This document shows positions 51,580-53,332 of a stretch of 64,000 nt of DNA, piece by piece. The position numbers were made by a program, and so were the translations under genes. The DNA is taken from NCBI RefSeq assembly GCF_038397755.1, contig NZ_CP151637.1, positions 1,364,001-1,428,000 of the forward strand, in the 5' to 3' direction. Below the pieces are notes generated by a model. The model searched no databases, was not told the origin of the DNA, and worked only from the letters and a program-made list of their open reading frames with translations. This DNA is from Microbacterium sp. LWH7-1.2 (GTDB lineage: Bacteria > Actinomycetota > Actinomycetes > Actinomycetales > Microbacteriaceae). Every line of letters starts with the position of its first letter. Position 1 is the first letter of the stretch.

Positions 51580-51700
51580 CGCACCAGTCTACGGGCGCGA
51601 TCGGAGGCGCCGGCCAGGCCCGACACCGTCGGCGACGCGGCGCTGTCACACTCCGCCACCTGCCGGTGTCATATGTGTGAGAGCGACAGGAGGAGGCGGC

Positions 51701-53332
51701 GTGCACGGCAGCGGGATCGAGACGGATCCGCACCACGCGGGGAGAGGTCGGCGGCGCTCAGCGATCGACCGGCTGGCCGACCGGGTCGCGCGAACCACCG
51801 TGTTCGGCCATCGCATCGATGATGTCTGGGCCGGGCTGCGGCAGCGTCGTGCGGCAGCCCACTGGACGAGCCTCTTCGGGGTGGTGTCCGCCGCGGCGCT
51901 CGTCGTGGTGACGGTGACGGGCGTGCTGCTCATGTTCTTCTACACGCCCTCGGGCGCGTCCACCACGTACGTCGGCTCCTATGCGCCGCTCCACGGCACC
52001 GAGGTCTCCCACGCGTTCGCATCGACGATGCACGTGACGTTCGACGTGCCCGGCGGGCAGGTGCTCCGGCAGTCGCACCACTGGGCGGGGCTCCTGCTTC
52101 CCGCGTCCATCGTCCTGCAGCTGGTCACGACCTTCTTCACCGGCGGATTCCGCCGGCCGCGCCGCGGCATGTGGGTGCTGCTGCTGCTCGCGTTCATCGC
52201 CGCGCTCGCGACGGGGTGGAGCGGCTACGCCCTCCCCGACGACATGCTCTCGGGAACCGGCCTGCGCATCGTCGAGGGCATCATGCTCGGGATCCCGGTC
52301 GTCGGCACCATGCTAAAGACGGTGCTCTTCGGCGGGTCGTTCCCGGGACGCATCATCGAGAACCTCTATCCGCTCCATACCGTGGTCCTCCCCGGGGCGC
52401 TGCTGCTGTTCCTCGCCCTGCGGGCCGTCGCGGCGTGGCGGCACGGCGCTCCGCGGTTCCCGGGCGCTCACGGTGCGGCGCGCGACGGAGTGCCGCTCAT
52501 CCCCACCGCAGCCGCCCGCGCAGGAGGACTGTTCCTCGTCGTGACCGCTCTGCTCGTGCTCATCGCGGCCACCGTGACCGTGAGCCCGATCTGGCTCTAC
52601 GGTCCCGCGGATCCGGGCAATGCCGGCGCCGGCAGCCAGCCAGACTGGTACACCGGCTTCCTCGACGGCGCGCTGCGACTGGTGCCGCCCGGGTGGGAGA
52701 TCGTGTGGCTCGGTCGCACCTGGACCCTCGCGATCCTGGCGCCGCTGGCCGTCGTCGGCGCCTTCTTCGCGGCCGTCGCGACCTACCCGTTCCTCGAGGC
52801 GTGGGTGAGCGATGACCGCCGCGAGCACGACGTCCTCGATCGGCCGCGGGTCGCGCCCACGCGCACCGGGATCGGCGTGGCCGGCCTCGTGTTCGCCGGC
52901 GTGCTGTGGGCCGCAGGCGGCGCCGATGTCATCGCGCCCGCCTTCAGCGTGAGCATCGAGCACGTGATCCTGTCGCTGCAGTCCGCCCTCCTCATCGGAC
53001 CGTTCATCGCGTTCTCGGTCACGCGTCGCGTCTGTCTGGGCCTGCAGCGCAAGGACCGCGAACTTCTGGACCACGGCTACGAGACGGGTCGCATCGTGCG
53101 CCTGCCCGGCGGTGAGTACGTCGAACTGCACCACCCGCTCGACGACGCGGAGCGGGCGCGCATCGCGCTGCCCCCCACGCCGCCGCCGCCCGACATCGGC
53201 CCGGACCGGCGCGGCACGCGGACCGTCGCCCGGCGTGTGCGCGCACGCCTGTGGGCGATCTACGCGCAAGACCGCGTCGACGCCGCAGAGACCCGAGCGG
53301 ACTCCGCCCAGCTTCCCGTCAGTCGGCGATGA
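51701..53332 (+). CDS. orphan QcrB-like cytochrome b, heme bH ligands replaced
   Basis: The 543-residue protein is homologous to QcrB of the actinobacterial bc1 complex. Conserved blocks are HHW at 126-128, FFTGGFRRPR at 145-154, PDWY (314-317, the Qo-site motif), DGALRLVPPGWEI, and the C-terminal RLPGGEYVELHHPL. Helix B keeps H126 but has Q140 where the second heme ligand should be. Helix D keeps H226 but has R241 at the matching place. Both predicted heme bH ligands are therefore lost while the heme bL pair is kept. No qcrA, qcrC or oxidase genes are adjacent, so it is a stand-alone paralogue. The GTG start follows AGGAGGAGG. It overlaps the convergent acetyltransferase by 14 nt. Confidence 0.85.
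   Translation: MHGSGIETDPHHAGRGRRRSAIDRLADRVARTTVFGHRIDDVWAGLRQRRAAAHWTSLFGVVSAAALVVVTVTGVLLMFFYTPSGASTTYVGSYAPLHGTEVSHAFASTMHVTFDVPGGQVLRQSHHWAGLLLPASIVLQLVTTFFTGGFRRPRRGMWVLLLLAFIAALATGWSGYALPDDMLSGTGLRIVEGIMLGIPVVGTMLKTVLFGGSFPGRIIENLYPLHTVVLPGALLLFLALRAVAAWRHGAPRFPGAHGAARDGVPLIPTAAARAGGLFLVVTALLVLIAATVTVSPIWLYGPADPGNAGAGSQPDWYTGFLDGALRLVPPGWEIVWLGRTWTLAILAPLAVVGAFFAAVATYPFLEAWVSDDRREHDVLDRPRVAPTRTGIGVAGLVFAGVLWAAGGADVIAPAFSVSIEHVILSLQSALLIGPFIAFSVTRRVCLGLQRKDRELLDHGYETGRIVRLPGGEYVELHHPLDDAERARIALPPTPPPPDIGPDRRGTRTVARRVRARLWAIYAQDRVDAAETRADSAQLPVSRR

Follow-up and report, generated by a model that had tools for sequence, protein, structure and literature searches.

A QcrB-type cytochrome b gene behind a putative ECF41-type promoter

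The gene described here lies in a stretch of 64,000 nucleotides of Microbacterium sp. LWH7-1.2 DNA, the whole of which we call the window. An open reading frame with a GTG start codon is preceded by a ribosome-binding site, evident on direct inspection of the sequence, and by a promoter-like element:

51644..51670, + strand: ECF41/SigJ-type promoter, TGTCACA-N17-GTC (which equals TGTCACA-N16-TGTC), 30 bases before the start codon
51688..51693, + strand: Shine-Dalgarno sequence AGGAGG, 7 nucleotides 5' of the GTG at 51701
51701..53332, + strand: QcrB-type cytochrome b paralogue of 543 amino acids, heme bH ligands replaced

Judged from its sequence, the encoded protein is a paralogue of QcrB, the cytochrome b of the actinobacterial bcc complex. 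It matches the Pfam models for cytochrome b, falls just below the cut-off of the actinobacterial QcrB model NF050120 (496.8 bits; cut-off 500), and aligns with PDB 7q21_B at an E value of 1.2e-104, with the likeness to QcrB spanning most of its length. The top matches of a fold search are QcrB structures, and the lower listed ones are other cytochromes b. In the AlphaFold2 model, which is heme-free (mean pLDDT 80.9; weak at about residues 171-215 and 296-330, the QP loops), neither of the transmembrane helices B (119-147) and D (218-248) is disrupted. Pairwise dN/dS values against seven relatives are 0.20-0.36, so this is a working gene, and the cytochrome b gene of the family to which it belongs is under purifying selection.

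The host genome carries a single canonical qcrB elsewhere (G000:C1:1129208-1130650), whose product has the canonical signature residues and is 46% identical to the window protein. Four Rieske-domain matches occur in this genome, namely QcrA, one frame of 137 amino acids and two frames of more than 500 amino acids. There is no Rieske or cytochrome c gene beside the cytochrome b gene in the window, and the QcrA that was found adjoins the canonical qcrB. The neighbouring genes are presumably dapF, miaA and miaB, to judge from their translations, together with a GNAT gene. As dapF, GNAT and miaA are of housekeeping type and keep the same order in other Microbacterium loci, they were rejected as partners of the cytochrome.

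Replacement of the heme bH ligands and pocket

Conservation was assessed in an alignment of the window protein and 117 relatives, taken from the best 120 of 2632 homologue matches. Left out were P0002, whose sequence is that of the query, and two family members, P0080 and P0088, in which the D-E loop carries long low-complexity insertions. The counts below are for these 118 sequences, among the matches listed:

52076..52078, + strand: His126, heme bL ligand on helix B, kept (118 of 118)
52118..52120, + strand: Gln140, replacing the heme bH ligand on helix B (117 of 118)
52181..52183, + strand: Leu161, replacing the helix C glycine on the bH side (118 of 118)
52376..52378, + strand: His226, heme bL ligand on helix D, kept (118 of 118)
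52421..52423, + strand: Arg241, replacing the heme bH ligand on helix D (115 of 118)
52640..52651, + strand: PDWY motif of the quinol-oxidation (QP/Qo) site (118 of 118)

The original prediction, made from the sequence of the window, held that His126 and His226 persist as heme bL ligands, that the PDWY motif is intact, and that Gln140 and Arg241 stand where heme bH ligands belong, and each of these points is borne out by the counts. PDWY is of the PEWY type of Qo motif, which takes the form PDWY or PDFY in actinobacteria. The exceptions are His at position 140 in P0092 and Trp, Pro and His at position 241 in P0034, P0050 and P0067, respectively; among the matches listed, none of the 118 rows has both bH histidines, and Arg123, Gly74 and Gly175 are each invariant. 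A shift in helix register was also considered and rejected, because the alignments place the bL histidines on His126 and His226 and the bH histidines on Gln140 and Arg241, precisely as first read.

Two further losses had escaped the first reading, those of the bH-side glycine of helix C and of the bH-side arginine. Going by known cytochrome b structures, we take Gly161 for the one of the two paired helix C glycines that faces bH, and Arg143 to act at a heme bH propionate. The arginine is lost in all 58 window-family rows, and R273 is fixed in the same 58. When 80 genome loci were sorted by the signature His126-His140-Arg143-Gly161-His226-His241, 35 were canonical, 42 had Gln140/Arg241, one had Gln/Trp and two had His/Tyr. 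Helices B and D show, in their N-side halves, no His, Met, Cys or Lys that at least half of the family has gained; such gains occur elsewhere, at C66 (helix A, 44 of 58 rows; Ala in the window protein), M78, M110, M182 and K451. We infer that the window family very probably lacks heme bH, the second heme of the protein.

Loss of bH in a cytochrome b has a laboratory counterpart in the H212N knock-out of Rhodobacter capsulatus, which also retains heme bL (PMC4330944, PMC4807273; available portions). That protein is a mutant in one ligand, whereas in the window family both ligands and the pocket are changed and the change is naturally conserved.

Degradation of the cytoplasmic half

We compared 58 window-family rows with 42 canonical QcrB rows at the 152 positions whose conservation in the canonical rows is 95% or more. 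With halves and loops delimited by the helices of the AlphaFold2 model, at cut points chosen by us, the family keeps 13 of 42 canonical-conserved positions on the bH/QN (cytoplasmic) side of helices A-E and 54 of 76 on the bL/QP (outer) side (Fisher p 3.7e-5). It keeps 26 of 34 in helices F-H and the C-tail, including 11 of 12 in the C-tail itself, and 0 of 7 in the N-terminal segment that is conserved in canonical QcrB; overall, 59 of the 152 positions are altered or relaxed. Because the canonical rows had been picked by signature residues and the family rows by Gln140, the six signature columns are no evidence in this comparison, and without them the counts are 13 of 38 versus 52 of 74 (Fisher p 0.0005).

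F39 and E49 are named as QN residues in a solved bcc complex (PMC8616580, available portion). They correspond to alignment columns 51 and 61, which hold Phe and Glu, respectively, in 42 of 42 canonical rows. Column 61 is Val, Ala or Ile in 57 of the 58 family rows (the other has a gap), and Phe remains at column 51 in only two of 58.

The loss of the bH/QN half is, on this comparative evidence, site-selective and ancient, the QN side being degraded and the quinol-oxidation side kept. Relative to the actinobacterial QcrB of bcc-aa3 (NF050120), the window protein shares the fold, the bL ligands, the QP loops, PDWY and the C-tail, whereas its QN residues, its bH ligands and the glycine and arginine of the bH side are replaced, the conserved N-terminal segment is gone, and the gene sits outside qcrCAB behind an ECF41-type promoter. 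Two claims made at the outset thereby stand. The suggestion of a specific loss at one heme site in place of random decay agrees with the fixed replacements, the half-protein count and the dN/dS range, and a normal Q-cycle is not expected in this subunit, the bH/QN half being lost while bL and PDWY are kept. Without bH and without QN, the Q-cycle cannot close here.

Distribution and history of the family

Members of the window family are assigned, by record title, to Microbacteriaceae, Promicromonosporaceae, Nocardioides and Microlunatus. A survey of Microbacteriaceae, proposed with the original prediction, finds the same replacements family-wide and a family member in at least 24 of 398 genomes, including that of the window (23 recognised by a gap in scores, plus L109, found on alignment). 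An 80-row tree places the family in a single clade whose sister group is Microbacteriaceae QcrB, and a smaller tree built without columns 61, 140, 143, 161, 241, 250 and 315 gives the same result (100/100).

The earliest branch within the family (L166, L036, L039) retains Glu61 and has His140, Ser143 and Tyr241, with Ala or Val at position 161. This branching order reads as a stepwise loss of the bH site. The three proteins could have an unusual His-Tyr heme or could represent steps toward loss, and a second heme is possible in them.

NDH-2 and SigJ genes beside the cytochrome

Neighbours were tallied at 60 distinct family loci, which remained from 67 fetched loci plus the window after identical frames were removed, and at 35 canonical QcrB loci. 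A gene for NDH-2 lies directly upstream on the same strand at 25 of 60 family loci versus 0 of 35 canonical loci, and a SigJ/ECF41 sigma factor gene lies within 8 kb at 24 of 60 versus 0 of 35. Genes for NmrA-like proteins (16 of 60), proteins like the SigJ C-terminal domain (14 of 60) and alpha/beta-hydrolases (15 of 60) are likewise found at none of the canonical loci. For loci with at least 7 kb on both sides, the counts are 20 of 52 versus 0 of 16 for NDH-2 and 22 of 52 versus 0 of 16 for SigJ.

At one such locus, L013, the neighbours match Pyr_redox_2, NmrA, Abhydrolase_6 and Abhydrolase_3 in Pfam and NCBIfam (LipP1 is below its cut-off), and the SigJ gene exceeds the cut-off of TIGR02957 at 342 bits. 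We take the upstream Pyr_redox_2 partner, which gave no match to a curated equivalog, to be an NDH-2. It is 58% identical to the NDH-2 of the host, and the family-locus NDH-2s form a clade of their own, tied to this cytochrome and apart from the housekeeping copies (26 versus 20 rows, SH-aLRT 100). A second NDH-2 of the L013 type (66-100% identity) is present in 10 of 23 cytochrome-bearing genomes, adjoining the cytochrome in nine, and a housekeeping-type NDH-2 (56-61% identical to that of L013) is present in all 23. In the genome of L169 (G288:C1:653300-672600), a dedicated-type NDH-2 (66% to L013) is encoded about 1.7 Mb from the predicted one-heme cytochrome b. Small stand-alone proteins that resemble the C-terminal regulatory domain of SigJ are encoded near SigJ genes at L013:347-814, L013:2254-2622 and L181:6279-6680, the last in the genome of the window.

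The window genome has no dedicated NDH-2; its single NDH-2 match is of the housekeeping type, so an NDH-2 partner is not general. None of seven named Microbacterium loci has NDH-2 beside the cytochrome. The cytochrome had at first been described as an orphan, a description that fits the window and these seven loci in that NDH-2 is missing, but fails for the family given the NDH-2 and SigJ counts above, and the window gene itself has the matching promoter. The call for conserved neighbours has the same divided outcome, with NDH-2 and SigJ recurring in family loci and no NDH-2 at the seven Microbacterium loci.

The ECF41/SigJ-type promoter

The published ECF41 promoter consensus is TGTCACA-n16-CGTC (PMC3426412, available portion). 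The -10 tetramer before the window gene, TGTC, is one base off the published CGTC, and a search of the window for the strict motif gave nothing. TGTCACA by itself is about as frequent there as chance predicts (3 found, 3.7 expected), so the case within the window is one of place and spacing only. No inverted repeats were found around the promoter.

An earlier scan of family upstream regions had used CGTC or GGTC as the -10 element. For the counts given here we used the relaxed pattern TGTCAC[AG]-N17-GTC, chosen after the family promoters had been inspected, which keeps the published spacing and leaves the first -10 base free. At 39 of 60 family loci, that of the window included, it lies no more than about 260 bp from where the cytochrome or NDH-2 gene is estimated to start, against 0.09 expected from first-order Markov shuffles. 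Before canonical qcrB genes it occurs at 1 of 35 (0.02 expected), an imperfect control because these genes normally lie inside qcrCAB, and a whole-locus count was added for this reason. On both strands of 1.03 Mb of family loci there are 75 matches and none to the reversed pattern; 39 are at cytochrome b or NDH-2 starts, 24 are near SigJ-module genes and 12 are elsewhere. The motif is missing at 21 of 60 family loci, among them the two from Nocardioides and each of the 11 examined in Promicromonosporaceae; NDH-2 is present at 10 of those 11.

In the whole 4.45 Mb window genome, TGTCACA-N17-GTC has three matches (one for the control). The first is that before the cytochrome b gene, the second lies at the 5' end of a frame for an alpha/beta-hydrolase, which has a SigJ gene and an NmrA-like gene next to it, and the third is at the 5' end of a carboxymuconolactone-decarboxylase frame that is followed by SigJ, a typical ECF41 locus. 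The number of matches is unremarkable; their positions are remarkable. Two proteins of this genome exceed the TIGR02957 (SigJ) cut-off, and both have SnoaL-type C-terminal Pfam matches.

These patterns make it quite probable that the window cytochrome b belongs to an ECF41 regulon. The ECF41 (SigJ) regulons portrayed in the available portion of PMC3426412 are comparable in promoter type, from which the window element departs by one base, and in neighbouring oxidoreductase or decarboxylase genes; COE genes are called the only known and detectable targets there, and the ECF41 signal is described as unknown. In that same portion, neither a cytochrome b nor NDH-2 is among the targets.

A separate loss of heme bH ligands in Jiangellaceae

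Second copies of QcrB (108 genomes of the class) were sampled by fetching 20, plus two more with flanks, for a total of 22. Among the first 20, 16 gave a frame, of which L198 aligned poorly; 13 of the other 15 keep the signature, and L199 and L200 are without the full set of signature residues. Nine loci, which cover the copies missing before and the two additional ones, were then included. Seven second copies from Jiangellaceae (f19, assigned through homologues) lack at least one bH ligand. The residue pairs found at the bH site in this family are His-Tyr, His-Trp, His-Ala, His-Leu, Gln-Trp and Gln-Arg. One copy from another family, L209, has Gln-Arg, and L210 keeps His-His. In total, 8 of 22 second copies are bH-deficient. 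The orphan QcrB2 and QcrB3 of S. coelicolor are likewise QcrB paralogues additional to that of the main supercomplex (PMC7931247, available portion). In six genomes of one putatively Streptomyces-like genus (L185-L190), the second copies keep all four histidines.

The Jiangellaceae form is sister to a canonical QcrB of Jiangellaceae, and grouping it with the window family is rejected (p-AU 0.0001, with the caveat of long branches). By this phylogeny, Jiangellaceae lost bH separately from the window family. PPWY replaces PDWY in 29 of the best 120 homologues listed for the Jiangella protein, and among these 29 sequences both bL histidines are present in 29 and both bH histidines in two. The PPWY replacement argues against menaquinol oxidation at QP as a function common to both lineages.

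The promoter motif stands at the cytochrome start at five of seven Jiangellaceae loci and is the sole match at each of those five. L206 has no match, and L211, an outlying member beside a divergent SigJ gene, has two matches, neither at the cytochrome start. At all six loci L205, L206, L207, L208, L212 and L213, a gene for a lipoprotein-like protein, which from its sequence we take to be a serpin, lies 3' of the Jiangella-type cytochrome b on the same strand. Finally, L209 (G495:C39) represents a third QcrB lineage and possibly a third origin of bH loss; besides Gln-Arg at the bH sites it has Trp161 where helix C should carry its glycine, and it sits on a very long branch and lacks the motif.

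Discussion

On balance, we favor the explanation that the window protein is a stress-regulon paralogue of QcrB, an ECF41-controlled cytochrome b that would carry heme bL alone and operate without a Q-cycle. Homology to QcrB, site-selective loss, purifying selection, linkage to NDH-2 and SigJ genes, the promoter motif and the second origin are direct observations behind this reading. The protein would have retained the outer half, with heme bL and the QP site, and given up the cytoplasmic half, with heme bH and the QN site, and an ECF41/SigJ-type promoter would make its gene part of a stress regulon. Many relatives would have one such promoter driving an operon of NDH-2 and the cytochrome. On receipt of the ECF41 signal, NDH-2 would oxidise NADH and reduce menaquinone, and the one-heme cytochrome b would react with menaquinol on its QP/bL side and pass electrons to an acceptor at the outer face. 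The simplest acceptor would be the Rieske/cytochrome cc arm of bcc-aa3, given that the likely contact regions, the QP loops and the C-tail, are largely kept. The outcome would be a poorly coupled outlet for NADH electrons without a Q-cycle. The kept C-tail and QP loops favor the bcc-aa3 machinery as the partner, and the NDH-2 operon favors an outlet for NADH at times of stress. We nonetheless regard this electron route, from NADH through NDH-2, menaquinol and the cytochrome b to an outer acceptor, as a speculative proposal that is more apt to be wrong than right.

Because the Jiangella lineage has lost the acidic residue of PDWY, two other readings stay in play. One, which we consider possible but hardly probable, is that the protein is an exchange or regulatory subunit that replaces one or both QcrB protomers of the bcc-aa3 supercomplex under stress. 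As one half of a mixed dimer it would send electrons from its own bL to the bL and bH of the canonical partner, and as a homodimer it would throttle the complex. The model has precedents, as bL-to-bL transfer occurs in engineered dimers with one bH-less half (PMC4330944, available portion), and the orphan QcrB3 of S. coelicolor was recovered with QcrB and CtaE on the tagged nitrate reductase Nar1 (PMC7931247, available portion). The positions kept on the QP side (54/76) and in the C-tail (11/12) suit such a subunit, as does a host with one canonical qcrB and one QcrA among its four Rieske-domain matches. However, the canonical N-terminal segment is gone (0/7 positions), and the NDH-2 operon is left unexplained.

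The other reading, to which we give a low probability, is that the protein is a redox or quinone sensor, or a quinone-binding membrane protein, that feeds the ECF41 system, with bL reporting the menaquinol/menaquinone state and no need for turnover. Invariant bL in both lineages, the missing PDWY acid in Jiangellaceae (each among the matches listed) and the stand-alone proteins like the SigJ C-terminal domain near SigJ at several loci are consistent with this role. Yet the promoter before the gene makes it look like an ECF41 target and not an input, PDWY is invariant in the window family (118/118 among the matches listed), and a co-directional NDH-2 suggests electron flow.

That two hemes are still bound, the second through unusual ligands, is very improbable; Lys can stand in for a bH ligand in an engineered cytochrome b (PMC4807273, available portion), but here both ligands are replaced, by Gln and Arg, neither helix B nor helix D has gained a His, Met, Cys or Lys in its N-side half, Leu stands at the site of the pocket glycine (118/118 among the matches listed) and the bH-side arginine is lost (58/58). 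Decay of a qcrB duplicate without present function could account for the 59 of 152 altered or relaxed positions, but is scarcely credible in view of dN/dS values of 0.20-0.36, the fixed Gln140 and Leu161 (117/118 and 118/118 among the matches listed) and R273 (58/58), the conserved promoter and neighbours, and the two origins.

The layout of cytochrome b, with two hemes and two sites, is taken to go inseparably with the Q-cycle. In a literature search of mostly open-access sources, we recognised among the matches listed neither a natural bc-type cytochrome b without bH nor a cytochrome b in an ECF41 regulon; ECF41 and cytochrome b occur together in one paper, PMC6180224. If the explanation that we favor is extended beyond the window, one-heme bc-type cytochromes b may be a recurrent natural class, with at least two losses of bH and QN in Actinobacteria, each under ECF41 control, a dedicated NDH-2 in one lineage, and a stress-induced route from NADH to menaquinol without a Q-cycle. 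We put this forward tentatively, at slightly less than even chances. If it is true, a natural form of the bL half would let one study that half alone, without engineered mutants, and uncoupling and superoxide handling would be open to study in a natural one-heme form. ECF41 sigma factors would also gain a concrete respiratory output, and two independent origins under apparently one promoter type would make both questions testable in soil bacteria.
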